Source: a virus. Taken from it: 30,664 bases of DNA. Position 1 is the first letter of the stretch. Every line of letters starts with the position of its first letter. Below are positions 2,493 through 30,035 of the stretch, in pieces. The notes under the pieces are model-generated. The model saw only the letters and a list, made by a program, of their open reading frames with translations. It was not told where the DNA came from and ran no database searches. Both the position numbers and the translations under genes were made by a program. The DNA lies in the IMG/VR virus record IMGVR_UViG_3300028600_000372, positions 1-30,664 of that record; one strand, given 5' to 3'.

Positions 2493-3236
2493 TTAAAATA
2501 TTTTCCTAGGCTGAAACAATCTGTTGCGAGTGCGTGGATTATTCAAGCTAGCTGCAGTCAGACCACCATAAGTCTCTGTTCCCAATATCTTTTCTATTAC
2601 GTCATCAAAGGACTGATCTGCAGTTTGTGGCTGCGTGGCTCCGTTAATTATTACTACAGGTGAATCTCCATGCTGCAAAGACATCCTACCAACAAAGCAA
2701 CAAATCATCAGTGCCTTTGTCAGACCATCTAACTCTTCGCCTGGTGCATAGTATGATACAGTTCCCTGCTCTGTGACGTGCTCTGTGAACATCTCCATCT
2801 GTTTGACTAAATCCTGCATGTCCTTTGTGCGTACCTTCTTTTCATCAATTGGAGGAAACTGTATTGAGTGATTTTGTTTTAGAGATAATGTAAGCTGCGT
2901 CATTTCTGTCATATCCATTACTTTGATTAGCTCAATATCTTCAGGGTCTTTGAGATTCTTTTGTGTGGTTATTGTCTGCACTTCAAACTTTAGTGCGTTT
3001 TCCACTGAGCGAATCAGATGCTGCCCAATTAACTGATCTGCAAATGTCATGTGCCATTTTACCTTATCAAAAATTTGCTTGACGTCATCAGGGATTTGGT
3101 TCATCTGTTCTCTTTTCCATTGCTTGGCTAGCCTGACATATGCCAGCTTCTTGTATGGATCAATTTCTATTCCAACCATACCAAACACTGTTCTTTGTTT
3201 TGTGTAGGATAGTGCAACGATTAGTTGGTTCTTCAT
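2493..3236 (-). CDS. Degenerate paralogue of the terminase nuclease, 247 aa
   Basis: Its first 70 residues align without gaps to the terminase nuclease at 3506..4057: FGMVGI matches FGVVGM, YVR..KQWKRE matches YVR..IEFKRE. The catalytic Asp10 of that protein is Ser10 here, Glu67 is Asp67, and the late Asp (HDD) corresponds to Asp170 in EELDGLTKAL. The RNase H-like fold is therefore probably kept while two-metal cleavage is lost or altered. About 65 extra C-terminal residues, rich in Gln, Thr and Asn, have no counterpart. The ATG overlaps the upstream stop as ATGA, so it is co-translated with the packaging genes. Possible roles are a regulatory terminase subunit, a DNA clamp or a head-completion protein; all are inference. 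Confidence 0.7.
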   Translation of the reverse strand: MKNQLIVALSYTKQRTVFGMVGIEIDPYKKLAYVRLAKQWKREQMNQIPDDVKQIFDKVKWHMTFADQLIGQHLIRSVENALKFEVQTITTQKNLKDPEDIELIKVMDMTEMTQLTLSLKQNHSIQFPPIDEKKVRTKDMQDLVKQMEMFTEHVTEQGTVSYYAPGEELDGLTKALMICCFVGRMSLQHGDSPVVIINGATQPQTADQSFDDVIEKILGTETYGGLTAASLNNPRTRNRLFQPRKIF

Positions 3237-3394
3237 TGTTTGGAAACCTTCACCAGTGCATCAGCCAATAATTCTAACCATCTATCGTAAGATTGTTTTG
3301 CCTCTAATAGATTCTTTTCAGCTTCTATAACATTATTTTTTGAAGTGTTAACACCTTCCTTTATTTGGTCTAGCAATGTGGCATTTTTACTCAT
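3233..3394 (-). CDS. Coiled-coil microprotein, 53 aa
   Basis: One long amphipathic helix (DQIKEGVNTSKNNVIEAEKN and on), so probably a small coiled-coil oligomer. I choose the ATG at 3394 because it overlaps the TGA of the preceding gene as ATGA; a longer version from an ATG at 3427 would overlap that gene by 37 bases. It lies between nuclease and nuclease paralogue, so a small terminase-like role is conceivable but unsupported. Confidence 0.7.
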   Translation of the reverse strand: MSKNATLLDQIKEGVNTSKNNVIEAEKNLLEAKQSYDRWLELLADALVKVSKQ

Positions 3395-3540
3395 GTTTTT
3401 TCCACTTCTGTCTTTTCGCAATGCCATTTGTTGTAGTATGGTTGACTGGTAACAACCATGTCTCCTGCAGGTAACTTGCCAATTTCATAAGCCATACGAT
3501 CAAGTTCATCTTTGCTGATCCCACCAAATTCTAATTGCAT
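3391..3540 (-). CDS. Unknown microprotein, 49 aa
   Basis: Reads MQLEFGGISKDELDRMAYEI and on. No known motif. The start at 3540 lies inside the 3' end of the nuclease gene (35-base overlap) and its TGA overlaps the next ATG. Support is the uninterrupted frame and the ATGA coupling. Confidence 0.6.
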   Translation of the reverse strand: MQLEFGGISKDELDRMAYEIGKLPAGDMVVTSQPYYNKWHCEKTEVEKT

Positions 3541-4057
3541 TACATCCTATTAGCTCGCACATAAATAAATCATCATGCCTTCCTCTCTGCCTCTTGTAAG
3601 ATACGTGGCCTGATGGTGAAGTTATCCCGACTATCTGATTTCTTTGGTTGATCAGCTCTGCGATGCCATCAGATTTCTTATCATGGTATTGTACAGTGTG
3701 TTTCTTGTATTCTGTCTTTAACCATTTTATCATGAATGGCTTGTCAACTACCCAGCCATCAGCGTTTGTCTCTTCGGTCAGTCCTGCAGATGTTGAGACG
3801 TATTTAATTGGAAGGTGTGAAAATGCCTTTGAAACATCCTCATAGTCAAAGTTCTTTTCTAGCATCATCAGGTGAAAGTTAATCTTTTTGTTCATTGATT
3901 CAAAATGATTTGCAACAGTAGAGTATTTTTCCCTCTTAAACTCAATTGCATGTCTGACGTATATTTTTCTTTCAGGCCAAGTTCCTTGCATTCCAACCAC
4001 ACCAAATGAATCTCCTGCCTTTGCAGGATCACCTATTAGCAGATTAAGACTTTTCAT
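3506..4057 (-). CDS. Terminase large subunit, nuclease part (split gene), 183 aa
   Basis: RNase H-like nuclease of a large terminase, encoded apart from its ATPase. The first strand carries LLIGDPA with catalytic Asp10, followed by the typical FGVVGM turn; MMLEKN supplies Glu67; RHDDLFMCELI supplies Asp162/163 at the start of the last helix. It would cut concatemeric DNA at the start and end of packaging. In most head-tailed viruses this domain is the C-terminal half of one protein with the ATPase; here the ATPase (4507..5571) ends in an acidic tail and two small genes lie between. The ATG at 4057 overlaps the preceding gene by 14 bases. Confidence 0.8.
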   Translation of the reverse strand: MKSLNLLIGDPAKAGDSFGVVGMQGTWPERKIYVRHAIEFKREKYSTVANHFESMNKKINFHLMMLEKNFDYEDVSKAFSHLPIKYVSTSAGLTEETNADGWVVDKPFMIKWLKTEYKKHTVQYHDKKSDGIAELINQRNQIVGITSPSGHVSYKRQRGRHDDLFMCELIGCNAIRIWWDQQR

Positions 4058-4187
4058 ATAATTTGATTGGTTCTAAATTGTGTGCATGGTTTAGATATTT
4101 GGTTAACAGTGCTTTCATTTCAGATTCGTTCATTGTTTGTATCACGGTCCGAAATTGGTTTATCGTCAGGTTTATTCCAGGGATCAT
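4044..4187 (-). CDS. Unknown microprotein, 47 aa
   Basis: Begins MIPGINLTINQFRTVIQTMN, mainly helical. ATG at 4187 overlaps the upstream TGA as ATGA and its TAA lies 14 bases inside the nuclease gene, so it is translationally coupled on both sides. No function visible; placed between the two terminase parts. Confidence 0.7.
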   Translation of the reverse strand: MIPGINLTINQFRTVIQTMNESEMKALLTKYLNHAHNLEPIKLYEKS

Positions 4188-4414
4188 GATTTTTCGATAT
4201 CCTCCATACTCATAGGTAATGCTGAGAGGATTCTGTTTGTATTTTTTGTGGTTATGATTATCTGTATCTCATCACCTGTATCTTTTACAATTTTTTCTAT
4301 TTCCTGCAGTCTATGATAGGTCATCCTTCTTTGCATATCAGAAAGTTTGTAATTGATACATTCCATGAGACAGTGAAGATACTCGGATTTTTGTGCAGCT
4401 AGGATTGTTTTCAT
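4184..4414 (-). CDS. Unknown helical protein, 76 aa, first gene of nuclease operon
   Basis: Mostly helical with a central strand (EIQIIITTK). No motif recognised. It opens the 4414-2493 operon, preceded by two TTTCTTATTAA elements. Size and position between terminase ATPase and nuclease would suit a small terminase subunit, but no DNA-binding motif is seen and this remains a guess. Confidence 0.75.
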   Translation of the reverse strand: MKTILAAQKSEYLHCLMECINYKLSDMQRRMTYHRLQEIEKIVKDTGDEIQIIITTKNTNRILSALPMSMEDIEKS

Positions 4415-4432
4415 GAAAATGATTAGAGTGTA

Positions 4433-4446
4433 TTTTCTTATTAAGA
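4433..4446 (-). promoter_or_regulatory. TTTTCTTATTAAGA element (proximal copy)
   Basis: First of two copies, separated by six bases, in the gap between the terminase ATPase and the 4414 operon. It starts 19 bases upstream of the ATG at 4414. TTAATAAG, read toward the gene, could itself serve as TATA box. Confidence 0.55.
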
Positions 4447-4452
4447 CTAATA

Positions 4453-4468
4453 TTTTCTTATTAATTTA
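4453..4468 (-). promoter_or_regulatory. TTTTCTTATTAATTTA element (distal copy)
   Basis: Second copy, 39 bases upstream of the ATG at 4414. The tandem arrangement with a 20-base period puts both copies on nearly the same helix face, which would suit cooperative binding by a dimeric regulator. Confidence 0.5.
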
Positions 4469-4486
4469 TCCTAGTCTTTTTGTTAT

Positions 4487-4513
4487 AACTTTGTGGAGAA
4501 TCTCCACTATGTT
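4487..4513. repeat. 27-base repeat with palindromic core, copy 1
   Basis: An exact 27-base match to 19805-19831. The core GTGGAGAATCTCCAC (4493-4507) is an inverted repeat with seven-base arms around one base; it is flanked by AACTTT and TATGTT in both copies. This copy spans the terminase ATPase stop codon (TAG, 4507-4509). A protein-binding site (ParB-like or packaging) is possible; as a terminator it would be unusual because no T-run follows on the gene strand. Confidence 0.75.
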
Positions 4514-5571
4514 TCTGTTTTTTTCTCATGCCAAAATATTCCATCTGGATCTTTTTCCTCATCATAATCGTCATTATCGTCATTATCGTCATCTGTTAAC
4601 CATTCAGGTCTTCCTTGCTGGTCTTCTACAGATACGGTTCCAAAGATTGAATCTCTTCCTGCCTTGTATTGGCATAGATATTCTTGTTCTGGATCTTCTG
4701 CAGACGAAGCAATCATTTCATTTATCTCATCTGTAGTGTAGAGATTTCCCTCAGCTTCCCAGATGTCATAGACAAAGAATACAAAGTCACTTTCGTTATG
4801 ATCCATGTCTATCTTGTAAAACATCTTGAGTGGTCCCTTTGGTGTGGATACCAAAAACAGGTCCGCACCGTTTGTTCTTACAATTGGGAGAATTGAATTG
4901 AATACTGGCGTATCATCAACTGTTCTCCATTTGGCTGCCTCATCCATGAATATGCACTTGTATTTTGTGTCACCAGTCAGTGCCTCTTCTGATGCAGAGT
5001 ATGCCCAGACTACAGTGTTATTGACAAGCTTGATGCATATGCCTTCCTTGGTGGACTTCATCCATTGTTCTACTACTGCAGGAATTGACTTGAGCAGTAC
5101 TGCAAATCTTCTAAGATCCTTTCTGGCAAGCGTTCCAGTTGTAGCTGCAATGATTGCAACGTTTGCCCCTGCATATCTTGAGAAACAAAGATGTAAAATT
5201 ATGCGCAATACTATTTCAGTAAATCCCATCTGTCTACCTTTCTTGATGTGCATCTTCAGGGCCTTTCTCATCTGGGCTATTGCATCACCAAATGATTTTC
5301 TGCCATTGAAGACTTTGTTTGCAAGATCCACCTGGTATGGTGTGAGTGGCATCTCTTCGTTTGTAGCTGGATGCCTTGGCAATCCTACGATGTGCGTTGT
5401 GCAGCATGTCGCAGTATGTTTGTAATCAGGATTCCTCTCATGTAGTGTATCGTCATCACACCAGAAAGGCAACGTTGCTAACCATTCACATAATTGAAGA
5501 GGGGTGGCCTGTTGATGATCTGTTTGGTCTTTTTGTTCTAGCTCCTCTAGACGAGAATCAAGTGATATCAT
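4507..5571 (-). CDS. Terminase large subunit, ATPase part (split gene), 354 aa
   Basis: Packaging motor ATPase. The Walker A variant of large terminases is KKGRQMGFTE (residues 110-119), Walker B KCIFMDEAAKW (D210, E211), coupling motif VSTPKG (241-246), and QEYLCQYKAG (296-305) is the usual end of the ATPase domain. The protein then stops after an acidic low-complexity tail (DDDNDDNDDYDEE), where a normal large terminase of 500-600 residues would continue into the nuclease. The tail could contact the separate nuclease subunit or the portal. It follows the helicase gene by 13 bases in one operon. ATG at 5571. The Cys pair at 56-57 has no obvious partner. Confidence 0.9.
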   Translation of the reverse strand: MISLDSRLEELEQKDQTDHQQATPLQLCEWLATLPFWCDDDTLHERNPDYKHTATCCTTHIVGLPRHPATNEEMPLTPYQVDLANKVFNGRKSFGDAIAQMRKALKMHIKKGRQMGFTEIVLRIILHLCFSRYAGANVAIIAATTGTLARKDLRRFAVLLKSIPAVVEQWMKSTKEGICIKLVNNTVVWAYSASEEALTGDTKYKCIFMDEAAKWRTVDDTPVFNSILPIVRTNGADLFLVSTPKGPLKMFYKIDMDHNESDFVFFVYDIWEAEGNLYTTDEINEMIASSAEDPEQEYLCQYKAGRDSIFGTVSVEDQQGRPEWLTDDDNDDNDDYDEEKDPDGIFWHEKKTET

Positions 5572-7854: not shown

Positions 7855-7866
7855 TCTTATTAAGAA
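7855..7866 (-). promoter_or_regulatory. TCTTATTAAGAA palindrome before helicase-terminase operon
   Basis: Perfect 12-base core of the TTTCTTAWTAAGAAA element, 31 bases upstream of the ATG at 7824. Read on the gene strand it abuts TTTAATAGATTA, a plausible TATA box 21-29 bases from the start codon, so the element sits in the BRE/activator position. Confidence 0.6.
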
Positions 7867-7885
7867 TCAGACTGATTGTTAATAA

Positions 7886-8274: not shown

Positions 8275-11200
8275 TCATGGTGCAGCCCATACACCATCAG
8301 CTCTTAAGAAATTGGTAGTTCCTCCACCAGATGCAGGCACTAATCCTTTGAGTGCGCTTGTAAAGAGATTAAGTAATGCCGTTGCTCTTGCCAATGTCAA
8401 TGATTCTGGAACTCCTGTTCCCGCTGTATCTCTTCCAATGAATGAATTAGTTCCAATGTTTGCCATTTTTGCTAATGTAACTTGTGCATCAGTTATGTTT
8501 GCAGTATTTACTGCATTATTGCCAAGTTCAGTTGTTGTAATTGCATTGGTAGCGATTTGTGCAGCTGTAATTGTATCATTTGATATGTTTGCAGCAGTAA
8601 TTGTAGTAGCTGCAATATCGCCACCTGTAACGGAACCAGCTACAATTTGAGATCCTCCGACTGAGTTTGTAGCCATTTGATTAATACCAATAGTTCCATT
8701 TGCAATGTTGGCGTTTGTTATTGTAAGGGCTGCAATTTTTGCACCTGTAACTGCAGCTGTTGCAATTTTCGTACCTGTAACTGCATTGGTTGCTAATACG
8801 TCTGCATCTACAATTCCATTTCCCAAGTTTGCATTTGTAATAGTTCCTGCAGCAATCTTTGCACCTGTAACTGCAGCTGTTGCTATCTTTGTACCTGTAA
8901 CTGCATTGGTTGCTAGTTTGTCTGCGGTTACAGCTTGAGTCCCAAGAATTGCAGACGTTACAGTCAAGAGTGCCATCTTTGAACCAGTAACTGTTGCGTT
9001 TGCTAATTTTACACCTGTAATTGTGTTACCTGCAATTTTGTCTGTGGTTACAGCATTGGTTGCAAGCTTTGCACCCGATACTGCCAAGTCTATAAGTTCG
9101 CCTGTACCAACAGCGTTGTTAGCGATTTGAGATGCTCCGACTGAGTTGGCAGCTAGTTGTGTAGCTGTGATAACTCCGTTTCCGATCTTTGCTGCGGTAA
9201 CTGCAAGATCTACTAATTCACCTGTACCAACAGCAGCGTTACCAATTTGAGATATCCCTACAGAGTTGGCAGCTAGTTGAGCAGATGTAATAGTTCCTGC
9301 AGCAATCTTTGCTGCGGTAACTGCCAAAGCTGCTATGTTTACGCCCTCAACTGCATTATTGGCTAGTTCAGATGTTGTAACTGCATTGGTAGCGATTTCA
9401 GTGGTTCCAACAGCTCCTGCATCAATATTCCAGACTGTGCCTCCTGATGAAACGGTTATGTCACCTTTATCTCCATCTGAGACTCCTGCAGCTGCTGCTC
9501 CGAAATCAACATTTGCACCGTTGGCTCTTCCAAAGAATTGATTTGTAGTTGAGTTATACCATATGGATCCATCTGTTAATACTGAAGGGGTTCCAGCTAC
9601 ATCTCCAAGTGAAATTCCTGGATTGGTTGCACTATGAGGAAATGTTTGTGTCAATCCTGCAGTGTAGGTATTGGTTTGATCTGTTTGCACTACAGTTGCA
9701 GGTAATGTCAAAGTGACAACACCTGCATTATCCATTGTAGCATCTCCAGACATTGTAACTGCAGTTGCAACACCAGATGCATTTCCTAACCAAAAGTTAG
9801 CTGATGCAATATTTGGCAGAGATGCATATCTTGAATTGATGAAAACATTCAAAACTCCGTTTGTTGGATTAGCCCTTCCAATTCTGCCAAGAACCTGAAT
9901 GCTTGCAGTTCCAGTTGGCCTAACATTTGTAAGTGTGTTGCCAGTTGTTCCAGATGTAGAAAGATAGATTGTTTGATTTGTAGAAAATGCACTTGTATCA
10001 AAATCTTCTAGATTTCCAGTCTCTACTATGAGACCAGTTTGACCATTTGAGATATCCTCTTCAACTATTCCTAGTGCTGGGGTTGGGTCATTGGCATCAG
10101 CTAATACTACATTTGCCCTGCCAAGACCAACATTCCATGTGTCTTCCCTTACAGCATCGCCTTTTGCCAGAACAGCCCCTGAAGTATTCTGAACTTGAAT
10201 GTGAACTTGGTTTGCGTCTATCTTATTTGTGATATCAGTCGCATTAAATCCAACTACATTACCTTGTATGAAATCATGTTCACCGTCACTACTCAGTTTG
10301 TATCTTATTGTAGGATTCACTGAACCAGTTGGTGTTAGGAAAATTGAATATCTTCCTGGAGTTGAAGTTGCAGAAAAATCGTCATCAGCTGCAATCTGTA
10401 CTGCCCCACCTCTACGCCATGCAGCAACAACATCTCCATCCCATCCATATCCTGTTAAATCAAATAATGTATCATCAAGAGCCGTTACAAGTGGAGAGGC
10501 AATTGTTCCGTTTGCACTTCTTCCTATGAAATTTGCACCATTTCCACCGCCATCATATGTCCTTACATCAACATCGGCAGTTAGTCCTTCAGCCACTACA
10601 GTTACAGTTTCTTGTAAAGTTGGGTTTCCTGCAAATACTAGAGGGCCACCGCCAGTTTCATCATCAATAATTCCTGCGAGTTGTGCAGAAGTTGTATTTG
10701 CAAAGAATGAAAGGTTATCCGTGTTTCTGGCAATTGATGCATCTAAAGTTACAACTCCTGTGCTTGACATGGTTGCATCACCGCTTACAGTTTGTGGCAA
10801 TCCATTGGTTCCAGCGTCACCGATTAGAATTTGTCCGTCTGGAATTTCAACTCCTAGCTGTACAGCTGTAGAACTTGCAAGTGTTATTTTTATTCCCTGA
10901 GTTACAGTCATAGTTTTGAATTGCATCAGTTTTGTAACTGCATCAACAGAATCATACCAATTGATTATTCCAGGACCAGATGCTATATTTTCTCCACCAG
11001 CTATTCCATAGGGTAAAAACACCAAGTCAGTTGTATCAATAACAATAGGAGCTGGTGTAGTTAGCTGCCATGATGTATCTTTATTCACTAAGCCTTGTGT
11101 GATGACAATGACTGCCCCAGCTAAGAAATCAACACTGGTTGCATTGAAATCTCCTGGTCTTGTCCAAGCTCCTGCACCTTGAGTAATCCAAACTCCGTTT

Positions 11201-12051
11201 TCTGATTGGTCTGTTTGGCCTACAAGAAGTATTCTATCAAAAGTTGTTAGTACTCCATCAATTGTTTGTTCACCTGACAACGTTGCAATGTTTGTAGTTG
11301 CAACAAGTTCTGCGGATCTTTTCCATGTATTTTCCGCATCAATAAAAACATCTGTTCTATTGTCAAAAGTATTATTGATGGCAAATACTCTGTTGCCAGT
11401 AAAGTTTAATCGAGGTTGTTCAGGAAGATCAACACCTTCGTTTTGTATAATGTGTCCACTTGAAGCGGGTGTTTGCCAATTAGCGTTTACACCATCACTT
11501 GTGAATACTGTGCCAGCTGGACCTATTAGTAATTGAGTCCATCTAATCCCACCAAAACCATCTGTTCCAACAACTACTCCCCCTTCAGTTACCGCAGAGG
11601 CAAGAGTATCTGGATGAGTTATAGAAAGCAAGTCATGAGGTCCTGATGGAGGAACAGCTAATGTTCCGTCATCTCTAAGGAATTGCGTTCCGTCAGGAGT
11701 TCCAGTACCGAGATTTGCAATTGGTACTAAGCTACTAGCATTTAATGGAGCATATCCATTAGCTACTCCCTTGTTTGCTGAATCTTCCTTTGCGTCTATC
11801 TGTGGTTGAATTGCTGAAGTTACTCCATTTACAAAACCTATTTCATCGGCAGTTGTTACTGATGAAACAATTATCCCTGATCCATCACTAACCATTGCAG
11901 CGTTTGGAGCTTGAAGTGAATTAGCTCTAACATATGCAAGTATTCTGGAAATAGAAGTATTGAAACTTCCTGTCCCTCCTTCTGAGATTTCAAGTATCTC
12001 GGTTCCGTCCAGTGTTACCTTTGGATTTAGAGAATTAATTGTTGCAGTCAT
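8275..12051 (-). CDS. Long tail fibre / receptor-binding protein, 1258 aa
   Basis: Largest gene of the window. The protein is almost free of Cys and rich in Thr, Ala, Asn, Ile and Val. Fibre-type motifs FLRDDGTLAVPP (about 123-134) and, at the very end, NFLRADGVWAAP are the FLRADGxW elements known from phage tail fibres. The middle holds beta-rich segments with repeated SGDATMSSTGVVTL and SGDATMDNAGVVTL units. Residues 877-1196 are 32 contiguous ten-residue repeats, best read as a trimeric beta-helical shaft. The short domain after the shaft (1197-1258) would be the tip or trimerisation end. Sits between a 108-residue gene and a 120-residue gene in one operon. Its role would be attachment to the archaeal surface layer. 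Confidence 0.85.
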   Translation of the reverse strand: MTATINSLNPKVTLDGTEILEISEGGTGSFNTSISRILAYVRANSLQAPNAAMVSDGSGIIVSSVTTADEIGFVNGVTSAIQPQIDAKEDSANKGVANGYAPLNASSLVPIANLGTGTPDGTQFLRDDGTLAVPPSGPHDLLSITHPDTLASAVTEGGVVVGTDGFGGIRWTQLLIGPAGTVFTSDGVNANWQTPASSGHIIQNEGVDLPEQPRLNFTGNRVFAINNTFDNRTDVFIDAENTWKRSAELVATTNIATLSGEQTIDGVLTTFDRILLVGQTDQSENGVWITQGAGAWTRPGDFNATSVDFLAGAVIVITQGLVNKDTSWQLTTPAPIVIDTTDLVFLPYGIAGGENIASGPGIINWYDSVDAVTKLMQFKTMTVTQGIKITLASSTAVQLGVEIPDGQILIGDAGTNGLPQTVSGDATMSSTGVVTLDASIARNTDNLSFFANTTSAQLAGIIDDETGGGPLVFAGNPTLQETVTVVAEGLTADVDVRTYDGGGNGANFIGRSANGTIASPLVTALDDTLFDLTGYGWDGDVVAAWRRGGAVQIAADDDFSATSTPGRYSIFLTPTGSVNPTIRYKLSSDGEHDFIQGNVVGFNATDITNKIDANQVHIQVQNTSGAVLAKGDAVREDTWNVGLGRANVVLADANDPTPALGIVEEDISNGQTGLIVETGNLEDFDTSAFSTNQTIYLSTSGTTGNTLTNVRPTGTASIQVLGRIGRANPTNGVLNVFINSRYASLPNIASANFWLGNASGVATAVTMSGDATMDNAGVVTLTLPATVVQTDQTNTYTAGLTQTFPHSATNPGISLGDVAGTPSVLTDGSIWYNSTTNQFFGRANGANVDFGAAAAGVSDGDKGDITVSSGGTVWNIDAGAVGTTEIATNAVTTSELANNAVEGVNIAALAVTAAKIAAGTITSAQLAANSVGISQIGNAAVGTGELVDLAVTAAKIGNGVITATQLAANSVGASQIANNAVGTGELIDLAVSGAKLATNAVTTDKIAGNTITGVKLANATVTGSKMALLTVTSAILGTQAVTADKLATNAVTGTKIATAAVTGAKIAAGTITNANLGNGIVDADVLATNAVTGTKIATAAVTGAKIAALTITNANIANGTIGINQMATNSVGGSQIVAGSVTGGDIAATTITAANISNDTITAAQIATNAITTTELGNNAVNTANITDAQVTLAKMANIGTNSFIGRDTAGTGVPESLTLARATALLNLFTSALKGLVPASGGGTTNFLRADGVWAAP
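8464..9423 (-). repeat. 32 decapeptide (30-base) repeats inside the fibre gene
   Basis: Uninterrupted ten-residue repeats with pattern x-x-x-[AT]-[VI]-[TG]-x-x-[KQEN]-[IL], for example ATNAVTGTKI and AAGTITNANL. Some units are nearly identical at DNA level: the pair ATNAVTGTKI-ATAAVTGAKI occurs twice, 120 bases apart (around 8740-8805 and 8860-8925), pointing to recent duplication by slippage or unequal recombination. The register is kept throughout, so repeat number could change without breaking the frame. Confidence 0.9.
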
Positions 12052-12418: not shown

Positions 12419-12434
12419 ATTTCTTATTAAGAAT
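12419..12434 (-). promoter_or_regulatory. ATTTCTTATTAAGAAT palindrome before fibre operon
   Basis: Near-perfect copy of the shared palindrome, 39 bases upstream of the ATG at 12380. On the gene strand TTAAATATAT follows directly, a good TATA box 30-38 bases before the ATG. The stop codon of the 44-residue gene 12427..12561 lies inside it. Confidence 0.65.
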
Positions 12435-12561
12435 GACACAAGCATTGACATTTTTTCCAAGTGCATAGATCATGTTTATGCTGCGCACATTTGAAACTAA
12501 AATAATGCAATGGTGTCTGTATCCAGATGGATTCATCTGGTTTGTCTTGTCTATTTGACAT
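12427..12561 (-). CDS. Zinc-finger microprotein, 44 aa
   Basis: Begins MSNRQDKPDESIWIQTPLHY. Its second half holds C25, H28, H30, C33, C38, C40, C42 and H43, enough ligands for one or two metal ions. It overlaps the previous gene by 11 bases and ends inside the fibre promoter element. Last of a series of tiny genes behind the 13389 promoter. Function unknown. Confidence 0.65.
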   Translation of the reverse strand: MSNRQDKPDESIWIQTPLHYFSFKCAQHKHDLCTWKKCQCLCHS

Positions 12562-14101: not shown

Positions 14102-14356
14102 TTAGTTTTTGAGTCCAAGATCTGGTAGATAATCACGTCTGAGGTATTCTTTACCTTGATCCAATCTAATGTCTACCTCAATCATACTGATCATTCTTTC
14201 TATTTTCCATAGTTTTTCCTCCATATATTCAGGAGAATAGAATTTGTCTTTGATCATAAATCCCTCTTTTGGGAGTCTGTTGTTTTCATTCATTGCCCCA
14301 GTGATATTACATCGCATGGTTCTCATCCAGCATTCCAGGTGTTCCTGTGTTATCAT
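14102..14356 (-). CDS. Unknown helical protein, 84 aa
   Basis: Two Cys only, helical C-terminus (YMEEKLWKIERMISMIEVDI). Not recognised. Its ATG is formed by the end of a perfect TTTCTTATTAAGAAA palindrome, and a TATA-like TTTATAATATA lies about 35-46 bases upstream. Confidence 0.75.
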   Translation of the reverse strand: MITQEHLECWMRTMRCNITGAMNENNRLPKEGFMIKDKFYSPEYMEEKLWKIERMISMIEVDIRLDQGKEYLRRDYLPDLGLKN

Positions 14357-14371
14357 TTCTTATTAAGAAAT
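14355..14371. promoter_or_regulatory. Perfect ATTTCTTATTAAGAAAT palindrome at a start codon
   Basis: Seventeen-base perfect palindrome. The terminal A of the core is the A of the start codon of 14102..14356, the same placement as at 29443-29457. With the TATA-like box upstream, the palindrome would cover the transcription start, so it looks like an operator. Confidence 0.65.
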
Positions 14372-14386
14372 ATTATCATATTAAAG

Positions 14387-17810: not shown

Positions 17811-18118
17811 TAGTTTAATCTCTTCCAGACTTCAGGTTTGTAAGCTGCTTTCATTATCAGCCAGACCAGGATTCCTTCTTTCTTCTTTTCTTGTGCATAA
17901 TCATAGAGTAACTGAGATTCCTTTGGGCCGATGTATGGTTTCACGCTTGAGAATTTTAACTGTGCCTCGTGCTTGTATCCTTCCGCATCAGTCCATTCCA
18001 CATCAGTTTTACCGAGGGATAATGGATGACGAAGAATTTTTGTTGCACCTTGCTTTTTCATTCTTTTGAGGAATCGTGTCTCATAGGAATTCCCTTTCCT
18101 TTTGTTTGGATGTGTCAT
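17810..18118 (-). CDS. Holliday-junction-resolvase-like nuclease (QxK variant), 102 aa
   Basis: Archaeal Hjc-like layout: basic start with E13 in the first helix, RHPLSLGKTDVEW with D39, then HEAQLKFSS with Q53-L-K55 in place of the usual E-x-K, and a later strand VWLIMK. It would resolve branched DNA before packaging. Gln at the metal position is known in some PD-(D/E)XK families, but activity should not be assumed. First residues MTHPNK are shared with the upstream gene through a 20-base repeat. Confidence 0.65.
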   Translation of the reverse strand: MTHPNKRKGNSYETRFLKRMKKQGATKILRHPLSLGKTDVEWTDAEGYKHEAQLKFSSVKPYIGPKESQLLYDYAQEKKKEGILVWLIMKAAYKPEVWKRLN

Positions 18119-18120
18119 TT
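18101..18120. repeat. 20-base direct repeat at a start codon, copy 1
   Basis: TTTGTTTGGATGTGTCATTT, identical to 18220-18239. It covers the start region of 17810..18118 and encodes its MTHPNK N-terminus. Confidence 0.85.
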
Positions 18121-18237
18121 TATAATCACGTAAGGTTCGCCATCAATACTAATACCCACATAATTTTCAAACCAGCCTCCCATTCTGTGGTATTCAACTC
18201 TTTCAGTCATTTCCTTTTCTTTGTTTGGATGTGTCAT
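18115..18237 (-). CDS. Unknown microprotein, 40 aa
   Basis: MTHPNKEKEMTERVEYHRMG and on, then strand-rich GISIDGEPYVIIK. ATGA overlaps on both sides. Shares its first six residues with the following resolvase-like gene. Confidence 0.7.
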   Translation of the reverse strand: MTHPNKEKEMTERVEYHRMGGWFENYVGISIDGEPYVIIK

Positions 18238-18239
18238 TT
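18220..18239. repeat. 20-base direct repeat at a start codon, copy 2
   Basis: Second exact copy of TTTGTTTGGATGTGTCATTT, over the start of 18115..18237. The 119-base distance means recombination between copies would delete the small gene and leave the nuclease start intact. Confidence 0.85.
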
Positions 18240-19006: not shown

Positions 19007-20207
19007 TCTCAAAGTGATCTTTGTCTACTTCACAACCAATGAATTGTCTTTCCAGTTTGTTGGCAGAGATTCCAAATGTCCCAGATCCTAAGAATGGATC
19101 ATAGACAATTTCATTTTCTACTGTTGTATGTTTAATGTAATAGTCAGATTCTGCAGTCGATTGAGCCCATTCATGTTCGTCCTTGTCAGGTTTTGTGGAT
19201 TTGACAAGATCAGAAACATAGTCTCCCTCATACTTTCCTTTTGTAAACCATAGCATGGGTTTCCATGCAACCATTGTCTTTGACGCATGAACCGATGTGG
19301 ATGGTCCTGAATGAATTATTGCAAGAGGCCAATGAAAGTCCAATCCGTATTTTTTCATAAAATTACAAATTTCAGGTATGTTTTTCTGGCCTACAAAAGT
19401 GATTAGAGAGCCACCATCTTTTAGAACTCTTGCAGCTTGTTTTGCCAGGTCTTCAAACAGGGGAAGAAATTCATCATGGTATGGAGGGTCTGTAAAGATT
19501 AGAGATATTGAACCATCAGCAATTGGAGCTTTTTGAAATTCACAATTATGAAGGGTGATTGATTCGGGAAGAATAATTTGATCATGTTGAATCTGATCTT
19601 CACGTATACGTTTCTTTTTTAATTTTTTTAGTTTAATGTAGACTGAATTTGTAGTGGTTTTATTTTCATTGTTATCTATGGCCTCAAACAGCTTGGCAAA
19701 TTTGGGATTTGTTTCAGACTCTTCCTTAATTTCCTCTAATTTTTTGATTGTGTTTGAGGACAATCCAGTATATTCTGCAATCACATCTCTAGATTTCTTC
19801 TGTGAACTTTGTGGAGAATCTCCACTATGTTGATTTATATCATTTCTGTTTCCTTGACGTTTTTTAGCTTCTTTTTTAATCTCAGGCTCTAAGGCATTTT
19901 TTATTGATAAAACTTCTGACTTTGTAAAATTCTTGCGTACACTATTTTCATGAAATTCACCTAGCGTTAAATCTTCAAGATTTACAATATGAACAGGTAT
20001 TTCAGTCCAGCCAATCTTTTTACAAGCTTCAACCCTTCTTTGACCTGCAATCAGATTATAGTTTTCATCAACTACAATCGGATGAAGTAGGCCAATTTCC
20101 TTAATGCTTGAAACCATCATTTCAAGATCTCCAAACTCCTTTCGGAATCTAATACCAATTTGTATTTCAGATATTGGGAGTTTTGGAGTATCTAGTTTTT
20201 GTCTCAT
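18966..20207 (-). CDS. ParB-like domain fused to DNA methyltransferase, 413 aa
   Basis: Residues 8-95 are a ParB/Srx-type domain: IGIRFRKEF, IVVDENYNLIAGQRR (GxRR at 55-58) and GEFHENSVRKNF. A helical link (100-200) contains KLEEIKEESE and a basic stretch. The C-terminal methylase has DPPY (240-243), then DPFLGSGTFG (370-379) as SAM-binding motif I; this order, catalytic motif first, marks a class beta amino-methyltransferase (N6-adenine or N4-cytosine). ParB-methylase fusions are known from phages and mobile elements. ATG at 20207 overlaps the upstream TGA. The linker codons contain the second 27-base repeat, coding for HSGDSPQ. Function: DNA modification, perhaps guarding viral DNA or marking a site. 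Confidence 0.88.
   Translation of the reverse strand: MRQKLDTPKLPISEIQIGIRFRKEFGDLEMMVSSIKEIGLLHPIVVDENYNLIAGQRRVEACKKIGWTEIPVHIVNLEDLTLGEFHENSVRKNFTKSEVLSIKNALEPEIKKEAKKRQGNRNDINQHSGDSPQSSQKKSRDVIAEYTGLSSNTIKKLEEIKEESETNPKFAKLFEAIDNNENKTTTNSVYIKLKKLKKKRIREDQIQHDQIILPESITLHNCEFQKAPIADGSISLIFTDPPYHDEFLPLFEDLAKQAARVLKDGGSLITFVGQKNIPEICNFMKKYGLDFHWPLAIIHSGPSTSVHASKTMVAWKPMLWFTKGKYEGDYVSDLVKSTKPDKDEHEWAQSTAESDYYIKHTTVENEIVYDPFLGSGTFGISANKLERQFIGCEVDKDHFENARRLLAIANNKT
19805..19831. repeat. 27-base repeat with palindromic core, copy 2
   Basis: Exact copy of 4487-4513, with inverted repeat GTGGAGAATCTCCAC at 19811-19825, here inside the linker of the ParB-methyltransferase gene. Conservation of all 27 bases in one coding and one stop-codon/noncoding setting argues for a function of the DNA itself or a recent copy event. 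Confidence 0.75.
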
Positions 20208-21163: not shown

Positions 21164-21430
21164 TCAACCACTCACCACTGGTTTTGCAATGAGACGTTTC
21201 TTGACATGCTTTGTCAGGATAAACTTGGTGAGTTTCTCATCAGTGACTTCCTTGGCATCGTGAAGTACCATAAACACACCTTCGGTTTCATGGTATCCAT
21301 ACAGATAGTACCCATCTTCGAGTTTTTCTGTTATCAATTTCTTGATGTCTCGAACATGTTTTTTGTTTGTAGGATCATAACGTTCTTCCTTATGTCCTTC
21401 TGTTTTTGTCATGATTTGTAATGTTTCCAT
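21164..21430 (-). CDS. Unknown alpha/beta protein, 88 aa
   Basis: Helix (KKHVRDIKKLITEKLEDGYY) then strands (YLYGYHETEGVFMVLHDAKE). No family assigned; the layout recalls small phage proteins of unknown role. ATG at 21430. Confidence 0.75.
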   Translation of the reverse strand: METLQIMTKTEGHKEERYDPTNKKHVRDIKKLITEKLEDGYYLYGYHETEGVFMVLHDAKEVTDEKLTKFILTKHVKKRLIAKPVVSG

Positions 21431-23192: not shown

Positions 23193-24335
23193 TTATTTCT
23201 TATTCAATATCTCTTTTAGAAGAACTTCCATGTGCTGTATCTGTATTCCCTGGTGTATTGAATTCTCTTGTTGCAGTGATAATTTCTTTTGGAGGTCCTC
23301 AATTTCATCTGACTTTGTTTCTAACTCTATTTGCTTTTCGCGTAATTCGGTATTCTCTTGCTCTTTTTTCTCTATCTCTATCTTGTCTCTTTGCGTGTCA
23401 TCTATGGTAAGATCAAGAACAGCTTTTCTAAATTCCTCAAAACATTCCTCCATTGTGGGTTGCAGATAAGTTCCATCAAGACCTCTTTTGTGAGCCATTA
23501 ATTTTTCTGCAATGTTTGAATTTACCGAGTTGTTTAGTTTTAGGATGGTGTTGAATCTCTTTCTAAATCCGTATATGGGAGCTTTGTCAAATCTGCGACC
23601 TACTCTGGTTCTTTTAATTCCTGCCTTTGGTATTGTTCTTTCCATTATTTCCCGTGCAGAAAGTACAGACATTGGCCCTCCTTTTGTAGATCTGCTATTG
23701 CTAACAATGGCAAATAATGGTGATTCATCATCTATGATTTCACCGTTTATCTTTCTGGCATTGTGATATGATTTTAGTGCATCATAAGCTTCTGGTGTGA
23801 GAAATGCCCAATATCCTTCAATGGAGTTATCATAAATTCTAATGCCACAGCACCCGTCAGGCATCTCTACTATGTGCTTCATACGCAATACTGGGTCAGT
23901 AATTGAACCAGGTCTTGCACCCGTTGAGGCAAGAAAGTGAATGAGTGCCTTTGACCTGAGATTTGGAACCACACTAAGCATTTTGTTAATCTCATCAGTC
24001 GTAAATGGAACTGCCCCTGCCAGGATGGATCCGTCCTCTGGTAACTGTTTTAGTAGTATTTTCTTGTGAATTGGAATGCGGTTCATTTCCAGCATTAAAA
24101 ATACAGAGTTTAACATGCCCTTGATTGTGTGATTTTTTATCTTTCTTTTCTTGTGGTGATCGATATAATACATAATATGATCATGAATTGTGTCACTATT
24201 TTGAGCAAGGTATTTGTCCCAATCAGTAATCTCAAAGAGTCGTTCATACCTTCTGAGTGTTCTTTCATAGCCCTCTCTTGTTTTTTGACTGTTAATTGAG
24301 CTGCTAAATACGTCAATGGCAGACAGTTTTAACAT
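23193..24335 (-). CDS. Tyrosine recombinase / integrase, 380 aa
   Basis: Core-binding helices in residues 1-95, catalytic domain from about 105. STGARPGS supplies Arg141; YGFRKRF the second Arg (R258) with Tyr255 where His is usual; AHKRG gives His282 and GTYLQP the nucleophile Tyr290. The catalytic Lys is not evident. After residue 310 comes a long coiled coil (DKIEIEKKEQENTELREKQI and on), an unusual extension that could mediate multimers. It would insert viral DNA into the host chromosome. Preceded by a 70-residue gene with a four-base gap. ATG at 24335. Confidence 0.88.
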   Translation of the reverse strand: MLKLSAIDVFSSSINSQKTREGYERTLRRYERLFEITDWDKYLAQNSDTIHDHIMYYIDHHKKRKIKNHTIKGMLNSVFLMLEMNRIPIHKKILLKQLPEDGSILAGAVPFTTDEINKMLSVVPNLRSKALIHFLASTGARPGSITDPVLRMKHIVEMPDGCCGIRIYDNSIEGYWAFLTPEAYDALKSYHNARKINGEIIDDESPLFAIVSNSRSTKGGPMSVLSAREIMERTIPKAGIKRTRVGRRFDKAPIYGFRKRFNTILKLNNSVNSNIAEKLMAHKRGLDGTYLQPTMEECFEEFRKAVLDLTIDDTQRDKIEIEKKEQENTELREKQIELETKSDEIEDLQKKLSLQQENSIHQGIQIQHMEVLLKEILNKK

Positions 24336-28512: not shown

Positions 28513-28551
28513 TGATCAATTCCCAGAAAAAATGCATATAGAGATTGTTTT

Positions 28552-28562
28552 TTTCTTATTAA
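28552..28562. promoter_or_regulatory. TTTCTTATTAA element between divergent membrane-protein genes
   Basis: Half of the shared palindrome, 40-50 bases upstream of the ATG at 28512 and 52-62 upstream of the plus-strand ATG at 28614. Could serve both directions. Confidence 0.5.
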
Positions 28563-28613
28563 TTTTTCTCAGAGTAGACATTCACTTAACAGTCCAAGAT
28601 AACCCTATTGTTT

Positions 28614-29396: not shown

Positions 29397-29410
29397 TTTC
29401 TTAATAAGAA
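29397..29410. promoter_or_regulatory. TTTCTTAATAAGAA element, central copy
   Basis: Lies midway between two divergent genes, about 44 bases from the minus start (29353) and 47 from the plus start (29457), so it can act on both. Confidence 0.6.
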
Positions 29411-29442
29411 TTATTGGTTCTAAATATTTTAATACGATAATA

Positions 29443-29457
29443 TTTCTTAATAAGAAA
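29443..29457 (+). promoter_or_regulatory. Perfect TTTCTTAATAAGAAA palindrome at start codon
   Basis: The last A is the A of the ATG at 29457. A TATA-like TAAATATTTTAATA (about 29421-29434) lies 23-36 bases upstream, so transcription would begin in or next to this palindrome. Confidence 0.65.
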
Positions 29458-30035
29458 TGAGACTGATTCTTTCTTCTATAGTTGTTTTTACAGTGGCATT
29501 ATCAATATTATCGGCATCAGTATATGCACAACAAAATGAAGTAACAATTCCAGCATGGGTTAAGGGAGTCGCAAACTTTTGGGCTGAAGATAACATCAGT
29601 GATAGTGAATATGCAGAGTCACTTACATTTTTGATTCAACAGGGAATTATCAAAATTGATTCTGAAGCAATGCCTCAAGCATCACAAATTTCCCTAGCTG
29701 ATGAAGAAAAGAGGCTTTACGAATTAGAATTAGATCAAAAAGATGATAAAATCAATATATTGGAGAATGACCTTGAAGATACTGGATTGGACAACTCAAA
29801 ATTACTCCAGAACATAGTTGAAAAAGATCAGGAAATTGAACATTTACAAGATGCACTTACTGCGTCTGATGAAAAGTTTGAGAATTGGAAGAAAGACAAT
29901 CCTGTTAAAACTGGAAACATTGGTGGTAAAATGATCAATGCCGAGACAATAAAAGAAATGGAAGATGAAATTGATAAACTTAAGCAGACCAATGCAGAAC
30001 TTGAAGAAGAGATACGTGAATTAAAATCCAAATAG
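29457..30035 (+). CDS. Exported coiled-coil protein with Nitrososphaerota surface domain, 192 aa
   Basis: Signal peptide of about 24 residues (MRLILSSIVVFTVALSILSA, cleavage after VYA). Residues 28-67 (VTIPAWVKGVANFWAEDNIS ... ESLTFLIQQGIIKI) match a short domain that I know as repeated in many exported Nitrososphaerota proteins. The rest (80-192) is a long coiled coil rich in Glu, Lys and Asp. It would be secreted or anchored at the surface of the infected cell. Possible roles are superinfection exclusion, envelope alteration or a host-derived virion part; each is inference. Own promoter with two palindromes. Confidence 0.8.
   Translation: MRLILSSIVVFTVALSILSASVYAQQNEVTIPAWVKGVANFWAEDNISDSEYAESLTFLIQQGIIKIDSEAMPQASQISLADEEKRLYELELDQKDDKINILENDLEDTGLDNSKLLQNIVEKDQEIEHLQDALTASDEKFENWKKDNPVKTGNIGGKMINAETIKEMEDEIDKLKQTNAELEEEIRELKSK

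Follow-up and report, generated by a model that had tools for sequence, protein, structure and literature searches.

The 27-bp repeat and its three copies

The DNA analysed here, referred to as the window, is a viral stretch of 30,664 nucleotides (IMG/VR record IMGVR_UViG_3300028600_000372, positions 1 to 30,664). Within it a sequence of 27 bp, AACATAGTGGAGATTCTCCACAAAGTT on the gene (minus) strand, occurs twice in identical form, once at the 3' end of the gene for the ATPase part of the terminase large subunit (copy B) and once inside a gene combining ParB_N, HTH and N6/N4 methyltransferase parts (copy C). The coordinates are compiled in Table 1. An earlier note on this DNA had pointed out the two exact copies some 15 kb apart, one across a stop codon and the other within a protein linker, and both the copies and their settings were confirmed, the stop codon being the TAG of the terminase ATPase gene. 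Its judgement that a 27-base match is very unlikely to arise by chance was likewise borne out, as about 2e-7 exact 27-mer pairs are expected in the window and the longest direct repeat in 60 Markov sequences of the window's length and composition was 18 bp.

Table 1. Position of the repeat copies and of the genes and segments surrounding them. L015 denotes the 46,091-bp contig described in the text.
Feature	Position	Strand	Remarks
Terminase nuclease-domain gene	3506..4057	-	Adjoins the ATPase gene in relatives
Lineage-specific insert between terminase ATPase and nuclease genes	4044..4506	-	Comprises the site flank, promoter-like elements and two orphan ORFs (76 and 47 aa)
40-bp extended unit AGAAACATAGTGGAGATTCTCCACAAAGTTATAACAAAAA	4477..4516	-	Exact match in the copy A region (L015:8308-8347)
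Copy B of the 27-bp repeat	4487..4513	-	Spans the terminase ATPase stop codon; two promoter-like elements, TTAATAAGAA, lie downstream
Terminase large subunit, ATPase part	4507..5571	-	TAG stop codon inside copy B
ParB_N-HTH-N6/N4 methyltransferase gene, 413 aa	18966..20207	-	Product proposed to bind the site
Copy C, 27-bp palindromic site in the ParB-methyltransferase gene	19805..19831	-	Encodes (Q)HSGDSPQS(S), ParB_N-HTH linker
Copy A, third exact 27-bp copy	L015:8318-8344		Outside the window

The inner 15-mer of the repeat is a perfect palindrome with 7-bp arms and one central base. The whole 27-mer forms an imperfect palindrome around GTGGAGATTCTCCAC, whose outer arms are AAC/GTT, with 11 of 13 pairs matching about a central T, and the ends of the palindrome coincide with the ends of the repeat.

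The earlier note had suggested a search of the fuller genome. A longer contig, IMGVR_UViG_3300028599_000007 (46,091 bp, 99.9% identical to the window), revealed a third exact copy (copy A), located among structural genes between a 71-aa ORF and a 39-aa orphan ORF and upstream of the latter. The three copies show one orientation relative to the genes, giving three identical sites in about 46 kb, and they match even at non-symmetric positions, which argues for recent copying more than for constraint. Neither the exact repeat nor a relaxed palindromic pattern was found in IMG/VR contigs beyond these two, and a 22-bp part of the repeat had no exact match among 84,980 prokaryote genomes (GTDB). As for the extent of the genome, the window contains a tail-fibre-like gene with 30-nt repeats (8275-12051), and similar repeat sequence is present at both ends of the 46-kb contig, so that the genome is probably nearly complete.

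Copy B at the terminase genes

Four viruses encode a terminase ATPase protein 59-72% identical to that of the window; a scan of the prokaryote genome collection returned no further terminase relatives. The ATPase and nuclease genes of these four abut or have only a promoter-like element between them, whereas in the window a segment of about 460 bp is inserted between them, which carries the repeat along with both TTAATAAGAA elements and the orphan ORFs. In the DNA searched from the four relatives the repeat was found nowhere (0 of 4), the terminase included. Because of this absence copy B is considered a recent addition in the lineage, not a group-wide packaging signal; the packaging option of the earlier note was thus rejected, another copy being moreover situated in a non-packaging gene.

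The combined alternative of a packaging signal or a core att site of the virus's own tyrosine integrase (23193-24335) is regarded as highly improbable. The 27 bp can be read as arms and spacer of 10+7+10, an integrase is encoded, and thaumarchaeal elements are known to use the 3' ends of protein genes (PMC6563490). However, recombination among three direct copies would lead to the loss of essential genes, the terminase of the relatives lacks the site, the absence of the 22-mer from prokaryote genomes leaves no host attB match at that length, and the in-gene palindrome described below characterises ParB genes rather than integrase genes. No positive evidence was obtained for the recombination site that the earlier note had listed, and no copy adjoins the integrase gene.

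The terminase large subunit is itself split (2493-5571) into the ATPase gene, the nuclease-domain gene and then a second nuclease-like paralog, an arrangement kept in the four relatives. Its best named match is the Nitrososphaera provirus Pro-Nvie1 (25% identity), and the integrase matches the archaeal XerA model, below the cut-off. Judged from these two matches, the virus is likely to be an archaeal tailed virus.

Copies A and B share more than the 27-mer. The 40 bp common to them add a TATA-like TTATAAC, and both copies lie upstream of promoter-like sequence and of orphan ORFs lacking a counterpart in the relatives. Possibly these two copies were dispersed together with the promoter-like part, as one small regulatory element. 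T4-type promoter-early stem-loop cassettes, reportedly described by Arbiol et al. in 2010 as short dispersed stem-loops near promoters and orphan genes, are similar in this respect. The combination of stem-loop, promoter and orphan gene would fit copies A and B but not copy C, which is coding, lacks the promoter portion and is located in a linker of ordinary length. A mobile regulatory cassette of this kind, spread by recombination and bringing orphan genes with it, would furthermore leave the palindromes conserved inside homologous ParB genes unexplained, and we consider it quite unlikely as an account of the repeat as a whole, although it could be the route by which copies A and B were copied.

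The ParB-methyltransferase gene and copy C

The statement of the earlier note that one copy lies within the ParB-domain gene itself proved correct. The 413-aa protein matches Pfam ParB_N (2.5e-10) and N6_N4_Mtase (5.2e-21) as well as the PHROG ParB-like and DNA methyltransferase families, and Foldseek gave matches to M1.HpyAVI, CcrM and M.BceJIV. An AlphaFold model based on 23 homologous sequences had a mean pLDDT of 82, as compared with 39 when two sequences were used. Sequence and model together predict the ParB_N fold with its GxRR CTP-binding motif, which reads AGQRRVEA in the window and GERRLRA in homologs, followed by HTH helices. The protein thus has the predicted make-up of a ParB, and a palindromic site is present within its gene, at a position that is the same in relatives.

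Copy C begins inside codon 126 and encodes residues 127-135, just before the HTH. Disorder is predicted at residues 121-129 (pLDDT <50), between helices 96-119 and 132-147. The linker comprises 44 residues, an ordinary length in a family in which most have 40-49, and there is therefore no sign of a net insertion at copy C. Random hydrophilic peptides scored as well as the nine site-encoded residues against the family HMM, so the profile did not single these residues out as native linker sequence, and the encoded peptide is uninformative on polarity. A ParA partner was sought, and no match to PF13614 or PF01656 was found in the 46-kb contig, which is possibly slightly incomplete; for this reason the arrangement was not classified as ParABS but as a parS-like, gene-embedded cognate site.

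Palindromes in the linkers of related genes

The comparison comprised 91 distinct genes including that of the window virus, 86 of them with an alignable linker. Many of the homologous ParB_N-HTH linkers hold long perfect palindromes whose sequences are unrelated between genes, such as ACCTTTCACAGAAATCTGTGAAAGGT, AAGGTTCGGAGAAATCTCCGAACCTT, TTTTGCTTGTGCCAAAATTGGCACAAGCAAAA and AAGAGCTTGTGTCAAATTTGACACAAGCTCTT, and from gene to gene the two arms of the palindrome change together. Perfect dyads with arms of at least 9 bp were present in 27 of the 86 genes as against a mean of 0.6 (maximum 2) in synonymous-codon shuffles, and 19 genes had arms of at least 12 bp as against 0.1; an equally long segment of the ParB core contained none with arms of at least 9 bp. 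When mismatches were allowed, the best dyad of the ParB segment fell in the linker for 80% of the genes, compared with 15% in shuffles and 10% expected from length. All dyads with arms of at least 9 bp in ParB-methyltransferase genes are in the linker, with one exception: a gene that lacks the usual linker has a palindrome with 15-bp arms directly behind its HTH (L069:8437-8468). The nearest ParB-methyltransferase relative (48%) likewise has a dyad of its own, an imperfect one, at the matching place, and several phages share the core GGAAAATTTTCC while their outer arms differ between them yet remain complementary. Phage ParB genes without a methyltransferase also carry such palindromes, namely those of Pseudomonas phage phiAH14a (GGTGGAAAATTTTCCACC), Vibrio phage eugene 12A10 (CAAGACGGAGAATTCTCCGTCTTG) and MT836385.

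This comparison indicates covariation at the DNA level, the encoded peptides being different. A different yet equally perfect palindrome at the same spot in related genes is probably the landing site of the encoded protein. The earlier note had made its proposal depend on conservation in relatives; the position and the palindrome are kept, the exact sequence is not. We found no account, among open-licence papers, of palindromes that covary while keeping one place in the linker of phage ParB and ParB-methyltransferase genes.

The free variation of the palindromes also bears on a reading of the repeat as a CRISPR-repeat mimic, in which a solitary repeat unit would give rise to an RNA anti-CRISPR. 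The length and the partial palindrome of the 27-mer are within the range of CRISPR repeats. Solitary repeat units acting as such mimics have been described in viruses (PMC10651486). With a coding copy C, relatives whose palindromes differ freely and no exact match to the 22-mer in the prokaryote genomes, this reading is scarcely credible here.

The complete genomes of phiAH14a and eugene 12A10 each hold their site once, with no second copy, and no second copies above shuffled controls were found in the other contigs, many of which are fragments. Extra copies are seen only in the window virus, that is in the window and the near-identical, non-independent contig, which argues against a multi-site system being general; to date, three identical sites are peculiar to this virus. 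From the sequence comparison copy C represents the conserved site, copies A and B the lineage-specific additions.

A DNA dyad and its likely binder

When loops of 0-10 nt were allowed, 30 of the 40 genes with arms of at least 8 bp had a dyad centre of only 0-2 nt. RNA hairpins do not need symmetry down to such a centre, so that a DNA dyad read by a dimer is favoured over an RNA hairpin. The 27-mer can fold as RNA (-8.2 kcal/mol, z -3.2), and a hairpin in the linker mRNA might tune translation or transcript stability and have been copied to two intergenic positions. Yet the symmetry exceeds what an RNA loop allows for, the window contains no Rfam match, and no U-tract follows the copies, and we judge an RNA element to be very unlikely. 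Transcription terminators were considered too and fit less well, given the missing U-tracts.

Half-site similarity between genes was related to the identity of their HTH, given ParB_N identity (partial r 0.41, 0 of 400 permutations, n=25), and remained so for pairs with less than 50% ParB_N identity (0.31, p = 0.003, n=25). The converse partial correlation, ParB_N given HTH, was near zero at n=25 and weaker, not absent, in a set of 38. A GTGG half-site is common to eight sites, that of the window and seven others including GTGGAAAATTTTCCAC of phiAH14a, whose ParB homolog is 43% identical over 70% of the N-terminal query. From these relations we infer binding of the protein to the site that its own gene carries, although linker and HTH are physically linked within a single gene, which could partly confound the association. 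The suggestion of the earlier note that the repeat is a site for the ParB-methyltransferase is thereby strongly supported by comparison, with covarying palindromes at the same linker position and a similarity that follows the HTH.

A different dimeric regulator, for instance a small viral RHH or HTH protein, might instead bind the palindrome and control the ParB gene together with two further genes. Copies A and B are placed upstream of promoter-like elements and small orphan genes, and several small RHH-like proteins seem, by eye, to be encoded by the virus. Such a regulator is considered unlikely, as it would leave unexplained both why the site is placed in ParB linkers of genomes as distinct as Pseudomonas, Vibrio and archaeal-type viruses and why it is associated with the HTH of the ParB protein itself.

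Proposed function and comparison with known ParB-parS systems

We therefore favour, as the probable explanation of these sequence data, that the 27-bp palindrome is the cognate nucleation site, parS-like and gene-embedded, of the virus's own ParB-methyltransferase, copied to two more places. According to this model, the segment linking ParB_N and HTH would double as a dyad-symmetric site, so that the gene carries its own site and the site sequence diversifies together with the HTH. In the window virus two intergenic copies would have been added, one at the 3' end of the terminase ATPase gene and one upstream of the 39-aa orphan ORF. A ParB-methyltransferase dimer would load at the sites and, at the in-gene site, mark or repress its own gene, while from copies A and B it might act on neighbouring genes or spread along the DNA and position the methyltransferase. 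Binding to the site, loading of the dimer, its regulatory action or spreading, and methylation in the vicinity of the sites are all proposed steps of this model.

Known systems offer partial parallels. ParB1 of the Streptomyces plasmid SCP1 binds three identical inverted repeats, one of them in parB1, as shown by ChIP-seq and biochemistry (PMC13245405). The window virus resembles it in having three identical inverted repeats, one within the parB gene, and a divergent ParB with a distinct site. However, SCP1 has a ParA and an ordinary ParB, whereas in this tailed virus ParB_N-HTH is fused to a DNA methyltransferase, no ParA was found, and the sites are 11-15 kb apart, two being located among structural and packaging genes. 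Bacillus subtilis parS-359 sits within parB (spo0J) (PMC4442127) and is, like copy C, a palindromic site inside the gene of its binding protein; B. subtilis parS is canonical and shared across bacteria, while in the phage family the sequence varies by gene and the pre-HTH place in the linker is kept. The occurrence of parS within coding sequences has also been discussed for repABC replicons (PMC9040568).

The window site GTGGAGATTCTCCAC does not resemble the canonical chromosomal parS, for which the consensus is TGTTTCACGTGAAACA (PMC7383237). In the divergence of ParB and Noc specificity, residues in the DNA-binding domain determine which palindromic site is recognised (PMC7383237). Noc with its NBS is comparable to the window protein as a ParB-fold protein with a diverged palindromic site; Noc sites, in contrast, are scattered on the chromosome, and the passages considered here describe no gene-embedded covarying site.

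A broader and more doubtful proposal, put forward tentatively, is that phage ParB-methyltransferases are address-carrying DNA modifiers. The loading site would be located in the protein's own linker and diversify with the HTH, and a CTP-dependent clamp would slide from it, methylating or silencing the viral DNA on either side. Some viruses, the window virus among them, would widen the territory with extra sites at packaging and structural blocks.

A perfect, ever-changing palindrome at a fixed place in coding sequence is a clear sign of a hidden function at the DNA level. Should the palindrome be the site of the protein itself, then for hundreds of phage ParB-like and ParB-methyltransferase proteins that are still uncharacterised the binding site could be read directly from the gene, a large natural set of matched protein-site pairs would be at hand for learning HTH specificity, and the function of ParB-methyltransferase fusions would become directly testable.

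Other sequence elements

Several further elements were observed. The phiAH14a record contains another palindrome, TCGGAGAAATCTCCGA (21316-21331), in the gene after the ParB gene, and its core resembles the linker sites. A second dyad element, TTATTAAGAAT-N7-ATTGTTAATAA, occurs at 7855-7885 of the window and at L015:10366-10395, with identical arms and differing spacers; both occurrences lie in promoter regions, some 35-60 bp ahead of a start codon. The promoter-like element TTA(A/T)TAAGAA is found upstream of genes at 999-1036, 4437-4464, 12424-12439, 14353-14385, 28531-28568, 29401-29460 and other positions of the window and also in a relative (G002); two of its copies, 33 bp long and 97% alike, are in inverted orientation. 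Finally, an exact 20-bp direct repeat (18101-18120 and 18220-18239), located at the 5' end of a 102-aa ORF and 119 bp upstream, looks like a partial duplication of the gene start.
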